Below are positions 4,763-10,781 of a DNA stretch of 64,000 bases, piece after piece. Below the pieces are notes generated by a model, which had not been told where the DNA came from, ran no database searches, and worked only from the letters and a program-made list of their open reading frames with translations. Source of the DNA: Allorhodopirellula solitaria (GTDB lineage: Bacteria > Planctomycetota > Planctomycetia > Pirellulales > Pirellulaceae); the NCBI RefSeq assembly GCF_007859855.1, contig NZ_SJPK01000003.1:69182-133181 (forward strand), read 5' to 3'. Position 1 is the stretch's first letter. Every line of letters starts with the position of its first letter. The translations under genes and the position numbers were made by a program.

Positions 4763-4862
4763 TTTGTTAGTCCCGAATGGGACGACAGGTTGTAGCCACG
4801 GGCGGGAGCCCGTGGATTTGGACGGGAGACGAATCCCAAAGCCCCAGCGGGGCGACAGATAC
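4763..4862. repeat. Short palindromic intergenic repeat
   Basis: Between the DUF1552 gene and the recombinase gene, the sequence contains the perfect inverted repeat ccacggg/cccgtgg around 4797-4815 and then a second short palindrome, gccccagcggggc, near 4840. It resembles REP-like intergenic palindromes of planctomycete genomes. It could act as a transcription end signal for the upstream operon, but there is no T-run. No coding capacity is evident. Confidence 0.45.
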
Positions 4863-4882: not shown

Positions 4883-6556
4883 CTATGCAACCCGTTCCCC
4901 AGGCCTGTGTGCGGCACGGTAATCCGCTCCGGTCTCTCGCGCGGTTCGAGAAAGCGATTCTTCGAGAGATTTTGAGCGAGTTCGCTTCGGCGCTGGACTG
5001 GACGATTCCGCGCGACCGCCACCATGAGCAAGTCGCTGGCCGATCGATTTTCGCAAGAACTCGTAAAACTCCACTTCGCCGATCGCCCGCCGTTGCCCCG
5101 GGTCAAGCATTTGGATCTCCTCTCGCCACGCCTCCAATGGTGGAATCGCCAAGGTCCAGAAACCGGGGCGTGACTCAGTCGCACGGGTGCCTGTCAAAAA
5201 CACTCGCTGTCCAACGCGGTTAATCTCAATCGTCACTCGCACAGACTCTTCGCCCTCGAATTGTTTGACATGAATCTGAGGCAACGTATCAAAACCGTTC
5301 AGCCGCTCTACTTCGGGAGTCGTATCGCCCGGCTTGTCAGCCACCGCGTCATGAGACTTCTCTGACGGAAGAACGCTGCCTGCCATCCGGTCCAACGGAC
5401 TGGGCATCTGCGCCGGATCGGCAGGCTTTGCCACGTGTACATAGATGGTCGTCGTTTCTAACCTCACATGACCAAGCACTTTCTGGATGCGGCGAATATC
5501 ACAACCGTCCTCAAAACTGTGGGTGGCGAAAGAGTGACGCAAGCTGTGTGGTGTGGCAGGCTTGGCGATCTCGGCGACAGCGACCGCTCGCTTCATCACT
5601 CGCTGGACAGTACGAGGATTCAGATACCGTACGGCGTTGGACGTTTGCCTCGTCGCAGACTCGCTCGGGAACAAATACGAGTCGCCACCACACTCCTCTT
5701 TTAGCGAACGAAATAGCGAGCGGTACGCCTCGGGTAACATGACTTGGCGATCGACGTTGCCTTTGCCTTGCACGATCGCAATGACATTGCGATCCAAGTC
5801 AACATCGCGCCAGCGAACTCGAACGACCTCGCTGACCCGCATCCCTGTCGCATACATAAGTCCCAAAAGCAGTTTGTCGCGCAGCGTCACGGCAGCCTCA
5901 ATCAACCGCCGGACCTCGTCCTTGCTCAACACAATTGGCTTCTTCTTGTCTCGCTTGGGCGTCTCGATCCCCAGCGTGATATCGAGAAAGCAGAATTTAT
6001 CGAAGGCATCCCGGATCCCCGACAGATGAACACCCACATGAGAAAAACCGCGGTCTGTCTCCACGAGGTATAGCAGGTACTCCTTGACTGTCTCTCGATC
6101 CATTTCGTGCGGGAGTCGACCCGACCAACGCAGAATCGATTTGAGTGCGCCGATATAGGCTTTGATCGTCTTCGTTTTAAAATTCCGAATCTTCATCTCA
6201 CGGTACATCAGTCTGACGAACTCTCTTTGAGACGGACGCTGTGTTCTCAAATCGATGGCAGCCATCTCACTGCGAAAATCCCGTGTGTCGATCACTTGAT
6301 CGCGAGGCGCGTCGCGTCCGATCGCAGCACGATACGCAGTCGCGTCGCGATAGCGGTGAATCGGATCCCGAACCGGTTTCTCAATGCGTTCCTGCTGATC
6401 CCCTGTGACCAACCCTGATGTCTCTCGAGAATCCTCGTCCGGCCGTCTGGCTTCGGCAGATTTGCCCACATGAGAGCGGTGCTCGTCGTAGGCCGCCGAG
6501 ATAGTGTTTCGCGAAGTGATCTTCGCCGCCTCATTGAACAATTCATTCGGGTCCAT
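4883..6556 (-). CDS. Atypical integron-integrase-like tyrosine recombinase
   Basis: A 557 aa tyrosine recombinase. The open frame extends upstream, but the ATG at 6556 is preceded by a strong AGGGGAG ribosome site (6564-6570) and begins MDPNELF. A core-binding SAM-like domain (about residues 108-200) precedes the catalytic domain (about 205-390). The full catalytic set is visible: R240 (ATGMRVSEV), K265 (GKGNVDR), H337 and R340 (PHSLRHSFATH), H363 (LGH) and Y372 (TTTIYVHV). The stretch KPATPHSLRHSFATH and the final SPLD resemble IntI. However, the roughly 30-residue IntI-specific insertion normally found before the xYVFPS strand is absent (YRSLFRSLKEECGGDSYLFPS). Extensions of about 105 residues (N-terminal) and 165 residues (C-terminal) are unusual. 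It diverges from the cassette array, the classic intI position, so it is inferred to move the cassettes. Confidence 0.88.
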   Translation of the reverse strand: MDPNELFNEAAKITSRNTISAAYDEHRSHVGKSAEARRPDEDSRETSGLVTGDQQERIEKPVRDPIHRYRDATAYRAAIGRDAPRDQVIDTRDFRSEMAAIDLRTQRPSQREFVRLMYREMKIRNFKTKTIKAYIGALKSILRWSGRLPHEMDRETVKEYLLYLVETDRGFSHVGVHLSGIRDAFDKFCFLDITLGIETPKRDKKKPIVLSKDEVRRLIEAAVTLRDKLLLGLMYATGMRVSEVVRVRWRDVDLDRNVIAIVQGKGNVDRQVMLPEAYRSLFRSLKEECGGDSYLFPSESATRQTSNAVRYLNPRTVQRVMKRAVAVAEIAKPATPHSLRHSFATHSFEDGCDIRRIQKVLGHVRLETTTIYVHVAKPADPAQMPSPLDRMAGSVLPSEKSHDAVADKPGDTTPEVERLNGFDTLPQIHVKQFEGEESVRVTIEINRVGQRVFLTGTRATESRPGFWTLAIPPLEAWREEIQMLDPGQRRAIGEVEFYEFLRKSIGQRLAHGGGRAESSSPAPKRTRSKSLEESLSRTARETGADYRAAHRPGERVA

Positions 6557-6837
6557 GGCATTGCTCCCCTCAACACAGCCAGCCGCCGCGAGTCTCCCAA
6601 CAGCTAGATCCGCCAGGCCGCCCCCCCAGCTCGAAAGCTGAAACACCAACTTCGAATCTAACGCTCTGTGTTCACCGATCAAGAAAAAAATCATGCAAAT
6701 TCTTCGAAAACTCGAGGAAAGAAAAAAACATCCTTGCATCCCTCCACCCAAACCGCCAAAATAACCCACTTTCCGACACCTTGCGTTTATTGCGACAGGG
6801 TGTCGCCTATAAACATGTTAAACGACCTCAGGTAACC
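6557..6837. other. Putative attI region and divergent promoter zone
   Basis: This is the intergenic stretch between the divergent recombinase gene and the first cassette gene. Its right end holds an inverted repeat, cgacacc (6774-6780) and ggtgtcg (6799-6805), then the presumed insertion point G^TTAAAC at 6817-6823. The block cagggtgtcg...taaacatGTT resembles the right end of the attC-like sites (cagggcggtgtcg...aaccttccGTT). In integrons such a primary site lies beside intI, and the promoter that drives the cassettes lies in or near it; no promoter could be assigned. The exact limits are uncertain. Confidence 0.6.
6774..6823 (+). other. attI: Candidate attI-like integration site
   Basis: The core site is GTTAAAC (6817-6823, fits GTTRRRY). 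The first 11 bases of the following cassette, counted from that G, are complementary at 10 of 11 positions to the last bases of the same cassette (7258-7268). This places the cassette boundary between 6817 and 6818. A 7 bp inverted repeat sits just upstream. The call depends on the array being an integron-like element and has not been tested. Confidence 0.6.
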
Positions 6838-7251
6838 GTGACCGACCAAGCATCCGAACGTCTCGACAACGATCACCCCGATGTTGACTTCGGCCCGCTT
6901 CGTCTTTACCGCGTCATCACCGGTGACATCGCGACCAACCATGGATGGGGCGAACCATACCCGCATTCGTCGCCACCGAATCTTCCCGACAATCGTGTTC
7001 GCAACTCCGCCATCGCTCGCGGGTACATCGCGCACTATTCGCTTTCCGCTGATGGACGACTCACCTTAAACTCCTACAATTACCCGTGCGTACCGCCGCT
7101 TGGACGTGACATTGTACAGGCCGCGAGCGAACTGCTAACTGGCGACTTCTGGCTGGTGATGAAACCGTATTTCCGTGCCCCGCGAACTTACGTGCCGTTC
7201 CGTGATAGCGTGATTGTTGTGGATCAATCGGAATGGCAGACCCCAACGTAG
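6838..7251 (+). CDS. Cassette 1: protein of unknown function
   Basis: A 137 aa protein in the first cassette (about 6818-7392). The frame is open from 6781, but that would run through the integration site, so the GTG at 6838, preceded by CTCAGG, is preferred (VTDQASERLD...). The protein has no signal peptide or membrane segment. It contains the aromatic segments GYIAHYSLSADGRLTLNSYN and GDFWLVMKPYF and ends RTYVPFRDSVIVVDQ. I do not recognise the family; the segments suggest a small beta-rich fold. As in integrons, the gene almost fills its cassette and stops shortly before the attC-like site. Being closest to the presumed attI, it would be the newest and best expressed cassette. Confidence 0.72.
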   Translation: MTDQASERLDNDHPDVDFGPLRLYRVITGDIATNHGWGEPYPHSSPPNLPDNRVRNSAIARGYIAHYSLSADGRLTLNSYNYPCVPPLGRDIVQAASELLTGDFWLVMKPYFRAPRTYVPFRDSVIVVDQSEWQTPT

Positions 7252-7261
7252 CGCAACGGTC

Positions 7262-7398
7262 GTGTAACATGGTTTTTACGCTAGGCCTTCGGCACACCTT
7301 CCTTGGTTGGTCACGCTCGCTGGCATTGGTACAATCTCTCGTAGTTCAGACATCGTTCGCTTCGTTCAGGGCGGTGTCGTAAAATCCTTCCGTTGTAC
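7262..7398 (+). repeat. attC: attC-like recombination site 1
   Basis: The site is 137 bp, flanked by gtgtaac (7262-7268) and gttgtac (7392-7398). The left arm aacatggtttttacg and the right arm cgtaaaatccttccgtt are imperfectly complementary. An inner cacacc/ggtgt pairing also fits a folded single-stranded attC. The last six bases belong to cassette 2. It shares about 100 bases with sites 2 and 3 and is close in length to Vibrio cholerae repeats. This is strong as a repeat and good as an attC. Confidence 0.8.
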
Positions 7399-7416
7399 GC
7401 CTCAGGTATTCGACTT

Positions 7417-7752
7417 GTGACGCTCGCACGCAAACGCAGTTCACCAATCCACGTTGACGGCATCGACTACCGTTGGGCGGTTTCTGCGCGCACGTTGTCC
7501 TCGCCCGAATACGTACTCTTGGTTGTGCAATCGGTTGACAATGGACAACGCATTGTCGTCACTGTCCCGCACCGCGACCGCTATCTCAACATGGGCGGCC
7601 CGCCTCCGCCCGACTTTCACTACGACGCGATAACGCCGTCACTTGTCCGTACCATCATGGCCGCTGCTGTCGATGCGGGCTGGGTACCGGATCGCCCCGG
7701 TTCAGAACTGTCCTTCGAGCTTCAACCAGATGAGACCGTGCGATTGCGCTAA
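7417..7752 (+). CDS. Cassette 2: small conserved protein of unknown function
   Basis: A 111 aa protein in cassette 2 (7393-7886). The frame is open from a TTG at the cassette edge; the GTG at 7417 (VTLARKRSSPIHVDG) is the more likely start, with CTCAGG upstream. The pattern of basic N-terminus, IHVDGIDYRWAV, LLVVQSVDNGQRIVVTVPHRD and TPSLVRTIMAAAVDAGWVPDRPG looks like a widespread family of short uncharacterised proteins in planctomycetes and actinobacteria. It has no signal peptide, so it should be cytoplasmic. The cassette's first ten bases (from G7392) are perfectly complementary to 7754-7763. Confidence 0.72.
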   Translation: MTLARKRSSPIHVDGIDYRWAVSARTLSSPEYVLLVVQSVDNGQRIVVTVPHRDRYLNMGGPPPPDFHYDAITPSLVRTIMAAAVDAGWVPDRPGSELSFELQPDETVRLR

Positions 7753-7756
7753 CGGC

Positions 7757-7892
7757 GTACAACATGGTTTTTACGCTAGGCCTTCGGCACACCTTCGCTC
7801 TTTGGCAACGGGCGATAGCTTTGGTAGAATTTCCGCAGTTCAGACATCGTTCGCTTCGTTCAGGGCGGTGTCGTAAAAACCTTCCGTTAGGT
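7757..7892 (+). repeat. attC: attC-like recombination site 2
   Basis: The site is 136 bp between gtacaac (7757-7763) and gttaggt (7886-7892). The arms ggtttttacg and cgtaaaaacc are perfectly complementary, separated from the core sites by 'at' on the left and 'ttcc' on the right, an asymmetric spacer as expected for a folded attC. gtacaac is the exact complement of the start of cassette 2 (gttgtac). Confidence 0.85.
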
Positions 7893-7918
7893 GACGCTAG
7901 TCTACTCAGGGGCAGACC

Positions 7919-8464
7919 GTGCCATCCAAACTCGTTGCCATCCACGACGCTGCATCCGGCTGCGAACTCGAACTTGCTGACAACTCGCGCATTGCCCTCA
8001 ACGTCACGCACGCAACCGTTCGCGACTACGTGATTCTCGATGGGTTCCGTGACCTGCAATCATTCGTTGACGCCCACCGGATCGACGTCTACTACCAACC
8101 GGTCTCTATTCGTCCATCCGACTGGGACACGTATTCGCGATTGGTTCGTGAATCTGGCGCTGCTTCCTCACTCCCCGATGTCTTGCCGCTATTCGATCTG
8201 ACTCACGCCGAGATTTTGGCGTTACCCAACCGACTGTACGGGGGCATTGGTTGCGCCATCAACGACTTGCCGCCCGTTTTCTACACCTCCCCGATCGCCG
8301 ACTTTCTTCCCGACAACCATCGTGGGGCCGATTGGTTTCGCTGGGCGTTCTCGTCCGCTGGGTACATGCTCCACCAAATCTACGTCAATCCAACTTCTGA
8401 TATCGTGAACCTTGAGAGTGGACACGTTGAGCATCACTATCTCGAAAATCCCCGCGTCACCTAA
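7919..8464 (+). CDS. Cassette 3: protein of unknown function
   Basis: A 181 aa protein starting at the GTG at 7919, with CTCAGGGG about 8 bases upstream as a ribosome site. Its TAA stop lies inside the core site of the next attC (acctaac), a tight packing seen in true cassettes. Segments include LVAIHDAASGCELELADNSRIAL at the N-terminus, then DVYYQPVSIRPSDWDTY and ADWFRWAFSSAGYMLHQIYVN. There is no signal peptide or membrane helix. I do not recognise a family. The cassette (7887-8589) shows 12 of 12 complementarity between its two ends (7886-7897 with 8454-8465). Confidence 0.72.
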   Translation: MPSKLVAIHDAASGCELELADNSRIALNVTHATVRDYVILDGFRDLQSFVDAHRIDVYYQPVSIRPSDWDTYSRLVRESGAASSLPDVLPLFDLTHAEILALPNRLYGGIGCAINDLPPVFYTSPIADFLPDNHRGADWFRWAFSSAGYMLHQIYVNPTSDIVNLESGHVEHHYLENPRVT

Positions 8465-8595
8465 CATGGTTTTTACGCATGGGCCTTCGGCACACCTTCG
8501 CTCTTTGGCAACGGGCGTTGGCCTTGGTACAATTTCTCGCAATTCAGACTCGCTCGCTTCGTTCAGGGCGGTGTCGTAAAAACCTTCCGTTAGCG
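8459..8595 (+). repeat. attC: attC-like recombination site 3
   Basis: The site is 137 bp from acctaac (8459-8465) to gttagcg (8589-8595), nearly identical to site 2 over most of its length. It has the same perfect ggtttttacg/cgtaaaaacc stem and the conserved ccttcggcacaccttcgctctttgg block. The left core is the exact complement of the start of cassette 3. Confidence 0.85.
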
Positions 8596-8608
8596 GACCC
8601 TAGCTTAA

Positions 8609-9403
8609 ATGACTCCTGCAACGTGGGTCCTTGAATCCGACGTTTTCCCCGATTCACACTCGCCTCTTCGCGCGGCTGTCCGTGATGCGGGGCATCGTCT
8701 CGTCGATTGGAGCGACGCTTGGTGGTCCGATGGGCTACCGCCCGATCTTGGCGGCACTCACACGTTTTTCCATGGCTCGCTTGGTAACGCCGCTCGTATC
8801 CACGACGAGCTCGACTGGTCGCCGGGATCATTCTGCAACACCGCTTCGTTCTGCTGCTCGGCGTGGTACGAATCTGCTCGCGATTGGTTGCTTCACGCCG
8901 ATTGGCGTTTGATGCCCGCCAATGACTTCGTCGCGTCTGCCGCTGACGTTGCCGCAGCAATCGGCTGCACCGATCGCATTTTCGTTCGCCCCAACAGCCC
9001 CTTGAAACCGTTCAGTGGTCGCGTACTTGACGTGGCTGTGGTAACGCTCAAAGCATTGGATCACGGTTTCTACTTCGATGACGAATCACTGCCGATCATT
9101 GCCGCGCCGATTCGCAAAGTAGGGCGAGAATGGCGATTCGTCATTGTTCGTAATTCGGTTGTTGCTGGCTCCGCTTACGACGCTCCGACGCGTTCGGCTG
9201 CTCCGGACCAACCCCAGAGCGAGGCTTGGACCTTCGCGCAGGTGGTTGCCAATGCTATTCCGGCACCTGCTGACGCCTACATTCTTGACGTTTGCGAATG
9301 TGACGGCGAATTGCAACTACTCGAACTCAACCCCTTTGGTGGCGCTGATCTCTACGCCTGTGATGCTACCAATATCGTGCGGGCCGTCACTGAAGCCCTC
9401 TGA
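8609..9403 (+). CDS. Cassette 4: ATP-grasp (R2K-type) protein
   Basis: A 264 aa protein starting with ATG at 8609. The C-terminal two-thirds resembles the R2K clade of ATP-grasp enzymes (DUF4343): RIFVRPNSPLKPFSG (about residues 129-143), EWRFVIVRNSVVAGS (about 174-188), and the metal-ligand strand LQLLELNPFGGADLYACD near the end, where E and N would bind magnesium. ATP-grasp enzymes join an acid to an amine or thiol using ATP. R2K members have been linked to peptide tagging and phage-bacterium conflict, but no substrate can be inferred here. It is the largest cassette gene and the only intact one with a recognisable enzyme fold. Cassette ends are complementary at 10 of 11 positions. Confidence 0.8.
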   Translation: MTPATWVLESDVFPDSHSPLRAAVRDAGHRLVDWSDAWWSDGLPPDLGGTHTFFHGSLGNAARIHDELDWSPGSFCNTASFCCSAWYESARDWLLHADWRLMPANDFVASAADVAAAIGCTDRIFVRPNSPLKPFSGRVLDVAVVTLKALDHGFYFDDESLPIIAAPIRKVGREWRFVIVRNSVVAGSAYDAPTRSAAPDQPQSEAWTFAQVVANAIPAPADAYILDVCECDGELQLLELNPFGGADLYACDATNIVRAVTEAL

Positions 9404-9435
9404 GATGACCAGCCGTCTTGGCGATTCACCGGGTC

Positions 9436-9536
9436 CGATAACATGGTTTTTGCGCTGGCTGGCCTTGGTACAATTTCACGTAATTCAGGCGTCGTTCGCT
9501 TCGTTTAGGGCGGCGTCGCGAAACCTTCCGTGGGGC
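9436..9536 (+). repeat. attC: attC-like recombination site 4 (short variant)
   Basis: The site is 101 bp, with left core cgataac (9436-9442) and right core gtggggc (9530-9536), which departs from GTTRRRY at its third base. The left arm ggtttttgcg and right arm cgcgaaacc still pair. About 36 bases of the central block present in sites 1-3 (from ccttcggcacacc onward) are missing, which shortens the loop. Confidence 0.72.
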
Positions 9537-9541
9537 AACAG

Positions 9542-9946: not shown

Positions 9947-9948
9947 TC

Positions 9949-10018
9949 GCCCAACATGGTTTCGCCGCGCTGCCGCGACTTCGTCATTGCGGAATCTTTG
10001 GGTTGGCCAACGTTGAAC
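9949..10018 (+). repeat. Degenerate attC-like site 5
   Basis: The left core gcccaac (9949-9955) and the next ten bases (atggttt...) match the other sites, but the sequence then diverges. A possible right core gttgaac lies at 10012-10018, giving about 70 bp, but the inner arms do not pair convincingly and the following cassette does not show matching ends. The right boundary is therefore uncertain; the site may be decayed or may have recombined with unrelated DNA. Confidence 0.4.
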
Positions 10019-10560: not shown

Positions 10561-10562
10561 GC

Positions 10563-10770
10563 ACATGACATGGTTTTTACGCAAAGTCACGGCTGTCGTC
10601 GTTGGAGAATCTCTCGGTGGGCAAAGTCAATCGCTTCGGTCACGTTCCCGCTGGTGCCAGCCCGCGAACGCCTGCGATCTTTGGCAGCGTCCGTTCTGTT
10701 GGTACAATGTTTGGTATGCGACGTTAACCGCTTCGATCAGAACCGGCTTCGTACAAACCTTCCGTTGGAC
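10563..10770 (+). repeat. Divergent attC-like site 6 (long variant)
   Basis: The left end acatgacatggtttttacgc (10563-10582) and right end cgtacaaaccttccgttggac (10750-10770) carry the same arms as sites 1-3, with the stem ggtttttacg/cgtacaaacc matching at 9 of 10. The interior is longer (208 bp in all) and only partly similar, sharing the ttggtacaat block. The left core is degenerate (acatgac), so the site may be inactive. The right core gttggac fits GTTRRRY and would open the last cassette. Confidence 0.6.
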
Positions 10771-10781
10771 AGACGAGACCA

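Follow-up and report, generated by a model that had tools for sequence, protein, structure and literature searches.

In integrons, each gene cassette carries its own R'' together with its own R' at the cassette head, and in most integrons the integrase gene is oriented divergently from the cassettes. Xer recombinases serve the dif site. The integrase of the integron, IntI, contains an additional helix, I2, and according to passages of PMC7790495 this helix is required for the capture of cassettes, confers single-strand recombination, and is absent from any other protein. With respect to the Planctomycetes, R. baltica is listed among integron carriers in an extract of PMC3108266. According to an extract of PMC8352920, a Planctomycetes attC model has already been published, so that attCs such as those considered here may have been collected earlier without the recombinase described below. 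In the literature searched, which took in few subscription papers and nothing from bioRxiv, we found no description of an integrase that lacks I2 and possesses an attI and attC arrays of its own.

The locus described here lies in a 64,000-nucleotide stretch of the Allorhodopirellula solitaria genome (contig NZ_SJPK01000003.1), referred to as the window. It consists of a gene for a tyrosine recombinase without the I2 insertion, an attI site, and an array of cassettes. The locus is very probably an integron-like, cassette-capturing attI/attC platform served by a recombinase that falls outside of the IntI clade. Its anatomy, the linkage of its parts, the cassette rule, the insertion point, and the exchange of cassettes are all demonstrated at the level of sequence. 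The features of the locus are listed in Table 1. Labels beginning with L, G, and C refer to loci or their sequences, genomes, and contigs.

Table 1. Positions of the recombinase gene, the attI site, and the cassettes within the window.
Feature	Positions	Strand	Description	Basis
Recombinase gene	4883..6556	-	557 aa, tyrosine recombinase without I2 insertion	reading frame, profiles, alignment, tree
C-terminal domain	5012..5278	-	residues ~427-515, family-conserved, no recognized relative	alignment, Pfam/PDB searches, low-confidence models
I2 position in IntI	5671..5697	-	empty in the window protein (EECGGD-SYLF)	alignment
attI	6787..6825	+	CGACA...TGTCG inverted repeat, 11 nt, crossover G/TT at 6817	
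Cassette 1	6817..7391	+	ORF ~6838 to 7251, no Pfam match	
attC 1	7260..7400	+	R'' TCGTGTAAC, R' GTTGTACGC	
Cassette 2	7392..7885	+	ORF end at 7752, no Pfam match	
attC 2	7755..7894	+	R'' GCGTACAAC, reverse-complementary to the R' of cassette 2 itself	
Cassette 3	7886..8588	+	ORF 7919-8464, no Pfam match	
attC 3	8457..8597	+	R'' TCACCTAAC, reverse-complementary to the R' of cassette 3 itself	
Cassette 4	8589..9529	+	ORF 8609-9403, ATP-grasp R2K domain	
attC 4	9434..9538	+	shortened to 105 bp, R'' with one mismatch to own R'	
Possible degenerate attC 5	9947..10010	+	16 bits, E 0.057, excluded from counts	
attC, long class	10561..10772	+	212 bp, last site detected in array	

The recombinase and its relatives

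The recombinase frame is open for 557 codons, in agreement with the length of about 557 residues proposed in a first-pass annotation. An in-frame GTG would extend the protein to 628 residues, but the start at the ATG at position 6556 is supported by a relative, L045, which begins with the same MDPN[DE]LF. Protein length is not distinctive by itself: the true IntI of the same genome lies in a 463-residue frame. The catalytic residues named in that annotation, R240, K265, H337, R340, H363, and Y372, are all present and are invariant in the 21 rows of the family alignment (A5). Just past the 3' end of the gene, at positions 4769-4815 of the reverse strand, there is a match to the Acido-Lenti-1 RNA (RF01687), with a score of 39.2 bits against a cut-off of 37.

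The annotation also held that the segment specific to IntI is missing, and the alignment leads to the same conclusion. In the I2 columns, which are defined by the 29 residues of a reference IntI, the window protein contains 3 residues and its 17 relatives contain 3-4, as compared with 26-30 in the 40 I2-bearing rows; the remaining rows have 3-7. The spacing from the GKG of box II to the HxxR motif is 73 in the window protein. It is 66-73 in 15 of the 16 relatives measured (86 in the remaining one), and 74 in L001 and L002, the XerC/D-like proteins of the window's own genome. For the comparison with IntI, only rows selected beforehand by the TIGR02249 profile were counted, a spacing-based IntI tag having been set aside; the spacing is 104-107 in 23 of these 25 rows, and the other two (L083 and L087) were misread by the simple pattern.

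The IntI profile, TIGR02249, matches the window protein in two stretches with a score of 183.6 bits, which does not reach the cut-off of 265. Its match to the relatives is likewise broken, from approximately positions 170-190 to 210-240, and the IntI4 chain of the solved structure 2a3v also aligns with the window protein in two stretches. The best NCBIfam model is of the XerA type at 186.3 bits, nearly equal to the TIGR02249 score. The XerA cut-off (NF040815) is likewise not reached, and those of XerD and XerC are missed with 162.5 of 329.6 bits and 153.9 of 335.15 bits, respectively. When the predicted core was submitted to Foldseek, the best E-value was obtained for IntI4 (2a3v, 7.5e-17), with XerA near (3.0e-16). 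The window recombinase thus resembles IntI (TIGR02249; IntI4, PDB 2a3v) in this structural match and in being a tyrosine recombinase located beside an attI and an attC array, and differs from it in the lack of I2, in its position outside of the IntI clade, and in an extra C-terminal domain. With XerA, XerC, and XerD (NF040815, TIGR02224, and TIGR02225; PDB 4a8e, 5hxy, and 1a0p) it shares the spacing between boxes II and III, similar scores, and a neighboring position in the best tree. It is distinguished from them by scores under all three cut-offs and by the cassette array that it adjoins.

The C-terminal region had been described at first pass as being of no recognized kind, and this description holds. 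The region forms a domain conserved across the family, and the copy in the window has neither a Pfam match nor a significant sequence relative in the PDB. Given that the models of the domain are weak, with a pLDDT of about 50 in one and a mean of 58.8 in another, no fold was assigned. The domain has no match in phage records. Among the matches listed in plasmid records, none spans 80% of the recombinase protein, and among those listed in a contig scan (80 tyrosine recombinases kept), none aligns to the C-terminal domain. An I2-bearing IntI is present on an IMG/VR contig classed as viral (L243) and clusters with a Rubrivivax IntI. As for the N-terminal extension, part of it appears by eye to be similar across the family.

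Among 241 genomes of the same taxonomic family, with at most five candidates scored per genome, clear relatives of the recombinase are present in 24 in addition to the window's own. One of these genomes, G155, has only a truncated copy, and the copy in G159 is cut by the contig end. In a sample of 392 genomes from the phylum, with at most three candidates per genome, an alignment profile revealed the recombinase in two, the window's own and G544, which belongs to another family of the same class; the G544 recombinase retains the C-terminal domain, and one window-type attC is located ~2.8 kb from its gene. Several copies of the recombinase, some partial, with window-type attCs close by, are found in G151, G161, and others. 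In G161, for example, such copies are positioned at 2.46, 3.24, and 6.06 Mb.

A tree was calculated without the I2 columns from 96 rows, 18 of them from the window family, with redundant, short, or broken rows omitted. The 40 I2-bearing sequences form one clade (support 100/100), and the 18 window-family rows, which share the C-terminal domain, form a separate clade (100/99) outside of it. The first-pass annotation had allowed for a place within bona fide IntI; the protein falls outside, and a reduced I2 inside true IntI is ruled out by the tree. On these branch supports the window recombinase family can be regarded firmly as not belonging inside the IntI clade. The best tree groups it with Xer-like enzymes (95/92). 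When the window family and IntI are forced together, the cost is 4.26 log units, and the AU test does not reject this grouping (p = 0.325); a placement of the family as sister to IntI would thus be compatible with the data. Descent from an I2-bearing IntI, with subsequent loss of the insertion, would suit both this test and the near equality of the TIGR02249 and XerA-type scores, yet it appears improbable in light of the single clade formed by all of the I2-bearing rows and of the Xer-like company that the window family keeps in the best tree.

The attI site and the cassettes

The window array contains five clear attC sites, which extend from position 7260 to position 10772. The R' of the window attI differs by one base from the partner of the first R'', and the R' that follows the R'' of attC 4, which belongs to the next cassette, is degenerate (GTGGGGCAA). 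The ORF of cassette 4 encodes an R2K clade ATP-grasp protein (Pfam R2K_3, 5e-13), and the six other array ORFs tested against Pfam gave no match. A second array with the same type of attC is located in the window's own genome at a contig end (L109, C4:720.5-723.8 kb). It includes two adjacent identical cassettes, and its contig gave no match in the Pfam integrase search of that genome.

Window-type attCs were identified with a covariance model trained on 11 sites from four arrays (those of the window, L109, L046, and L060). Across loci, the site lengths fall into two main classes of about 140 and about 212 bp. A 15-base attC pattern has nine matches in the window's own genome and none when the pattern is read backwards. 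This pattern, along with the cassette rule described below, rules out chance repeats as the source of the array.

At the six variable positions, R'' and the R' of its own cassette match perfectly in 52 of 69 pairs, with a mean of 5.48 of 6. Against the R' of the neighboring cassette, only 8 of 83 pairs are perfect and the mean is 3.45, as compared with 3.29 in shuffles. For these counts, 89 of the 95 model matches were used, five weak ones and the lone site of L058 being omitted. In a larger, overlapping set consisting of the best 150 of 277 sites (alignment A4), 86 of 119 own-cassette pairs are perfect versus 9 of 150 with the neighbor's R'. Also in these best 150 sites, R' starts with GTT without exception (150/150). 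The R''/R' match is, we infer, the mark of units that are cut at G/TT and selected for pairing in the free circle.

The attI site was located via the partner of the R'' of the first detected cassette. It lies beside the recombinase gene at 18 of the 19 loci examined, where it is composed of GTCG, 10-12 nt, and G/TT, and at many of them the inverted repeat CGACA/TGTCG is present. None was recognized at the remaining locus, L060. The partner is exact at 15 loci and one base off at three (the window, L051, and L056). In the attC sites, the consensus for the 24 bases preceding R' is AGGGCGGTGTCGTAAAAACCTTCC, with GTCG at 12 nt as in attI.

In five related genomes, L061-L065, 50 of the 60 columns preceding G/TT are invariant, as compared with 7 of the 60 that start there; GTTGT accounts for five of these seven. 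The aligned identities are 0.78-0.94 before G/TT and 0.24-0.44 after it. The contrast is weaker for the window, L045, and L046 (0.52-0.63 before and 0.37-0.43 after), and also for L059 versus L061-L065 (0.55-0.60 before and 0.07-0.39 after). Since the similarity stops at G/TT, different first cassettes have entered at one base. In addition, 138 cassettes have a detected site at either end, and among them are 22 homologous pairs with unrelated flanks. The alignment begins at base 1 of both cassettes in 18 of these pairs, and in the other four it begins at base 1 of only one cassette, its partner being longer, probably composite, and aligned from an internal position. One cassette of the L109 array shares 97.5% identity over 1027 bases with a cassette in G144, which belongs to another genus. 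Identical cassettes also turn up in different surroundings. As judged from these sequences, the cassettes move as units.

Linkage of the recombinase to the array

As the first-pass reading implied, homologs of the recombinase do adjoin cassette-like repeats. With one locus considered per genome, the covariance model detects at least one window-type attC in cis to the recombinase gene at 21 of the 25 loci, and at the other four (L050, L057, L066, and L068) there is a contig edge on the array side and no site on the other. Twenty of the 21 were found first. The last, in G006, was added with more sequence; its sites are 3.2 to 6.8 kb away, and its recombinase gene carries stops. Note that the positive loci include L058, which has a truncated gene and one site. 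When the three loci used for training the model are left out, 18 of 22 loci are positive.

The recombinase gene is codirectional with the cassettes at 16 of the 21 loci, with its 3' end facing the array, and divergent at five, including the window and the truncated copy of G155. In G160, a tRNA-Met gene is situated ~300 bases past the 3' end of the recombinase gene (L046, 1655-1729, reverse strand). The platforms are similar to classical integrons with regard to the attI beside the recombinase, the R''/R' cassette rule, and the mobile cassettes, but they differ in that the integrase is not IntI and that the codirectional arrangement prevails over the divergent one. They also differ from CALINs, which are attC clusters without IntI and with no integrase near the attCs, in that a dedicated recombinase and an attI are present in cis; a non-IntI recombinase was found so placed at 21 loci, one of them that of the window.

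In a search of whole genomes with the model, in which at most 13 sites per genome were listed, window-type attCs were found in 57 of the 241 genomes. They are present in all 25 recombinase-positive genomes versus 32 of the 216 others (Fisher p 1.6e-18, with shared ancestry ignored). Among those 32, the C-terminal domain is present, in whole or in part, in six and a true IntI in 17, and in 26 of the 57 attC-bearing genomes neither the recombinase nor the C-terminal domain was found. In G143, G145, and G167, window-type attCs occur along with the C-terminal domain or at least pieces of it, and none of the three has an IntI match at E 1e-45. Among the sites listed, the attCs extend across 41 kb in G148 and some 45 kb in G190.

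Window-type platforms co-exist with true IntI in most of the same genomes. The window's own genome encodes an I2-bearing IntI on another contig (C12:180843-181790; L005, L078) that scores 413 bits, and true IntI is found in 21 of the 24 other recombinase-bearing genomes, where it could act in trans. The arrays might, accordingly, be CALIN cassettes of the co-resident IntI, with the window recombinase being a bystander or an Xer-like neighbor, and the true IntI in 17 of the 32 attC genomes lacking a recombinase match would agree with such a scheme. The distribution of the att sites, however, renders it highly improbable. Window-type att sites were not seen at IntI loci: the covariance model found a window-type attC at 0 of 18 true-IntI loci, in stretches of 3.8 to 19 kb, and a loose motif scan of these loci gave one half-site, in L123. 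Seven of the IntI loci were inspected and show other repeats, which are at most candidates for attCs. Moreover, five genomes with matches to IntI and none to the recombinase, three of them over the cut-off (G034, G225, and G239) and two with IntI fragments (G029 and G030), are not among the 57 that have window-type attCs.

The recombinase, the attI, and the array, on the other hand, are linked across genome after genome. Three genomes have the recombinase and window-type attCs and no true IntI above the cut-off, all three being draft assemblies that are 99% (G160), 80% (G136), and 82% (G133) complete. The array is in cis in G160 and G136, and the contig of G133 stops too early. The linked attI, the cassette arrays, and the I2-less enzyme point to an attI/attC platform whose integrase is not IntI, and on balance the window recombinase is the best candidate for the cassette enzyme.

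Folding of the attC sites and implications

If the window recombinase serves the platform, the predicted enzyme would take the single-stranded hairpin formed by the attC of a cassette circle and insert it into a double-stranded attI. Strand exchange would occur at G/TT between the folded attC and attI, and cassettes would be excised by attC x attC recombination. The recognition work of I2 may be done by other parts of the protein, possibly by the C-terminal domain of the family.

The complementarity of R'' and R' suggests the use of a folded, single-stranded attC. In the best 150 of 277 sites, one base pair of the hairpin occurs as G-C 73 times and as C-G 68 times. In this alignment, which was fitted to the covariance model, the hairpin cells changed on both sides number 116 versus 59.7 in shuffles, a value above every shuffle; the pairs with two-sided changes (4 versus 4.6) and the pair types (21 versus 22.6) show no excess over shuffles. 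Of the 133 short sites, 112 fold better when joined to their own R' than in the array and 17 fold worse, and at least six of the nine R-arm pairs are formed in 119 of the 133 joined sites. For six of seven in-array sites, folding is not clearly better than that of shuffles. The bottom strand is computed to be more stable in only 51 of the 133 short sites, so that a strand choice like that of IntI is unsupported by energy. Both the R''/R' and the L''/L' pairing are kept, and the substrate thus still resembles a folded attC.

It could be argued that the recombinase acts, in the manner of Xer, on double-stranded L'-R' sites and exchanges cassettes without a folded single strand. The Xer-like spacing and the absence of I2 would be expected of such an enzyme. 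The attI and attC sites have a GTCG-N10-12-GTT core in common that is a possible double-stranded site, many attIs display the CGACA/TGTCG inverted repeat, and the computed energies are without a bottom-strand bias. This proposal leaves unexplained, however, why an R'' that is ~130 bp off mirrors six variable bases of its own R', and it does not explain the paired changes within the hairpin. It is thus considered unlikely, and a folded attC is favored because a double-stranded core needs no distant R''. A mode of attC recognition that differs from that of IntI, as raised in the first-pass annotation, is plausible.

The platform may also represent a second origin of folded-attC cassette capture, in an Xer-like recombinase that never had I2. 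The new C-terminal domain and the structure of its own attCs would then replace I2 and the extrahelical bases, and two independent integron-type systems, each with att sites of its own, would operate in parallel within one planctomycete cell. We advance this proposal tentatively, as a possibility that falls somewhat short of probable.

According to an extract of PMC9668308, detection by IntegronFinder demands an IntI-specific domain, and window-type arrays would therefore be expected to be reported as CALIN. Indeed, tools with such a requirement can be expected to miss platforms of this type and to file their arrays under that heading. Some of the integron-less cassette clusters may thus have a dedicated recombinase after all. 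An I2-less family located at attI and at large mobile arrays provides a natural test of the necessity of I2 and of ideas regarding the origins of integrons.
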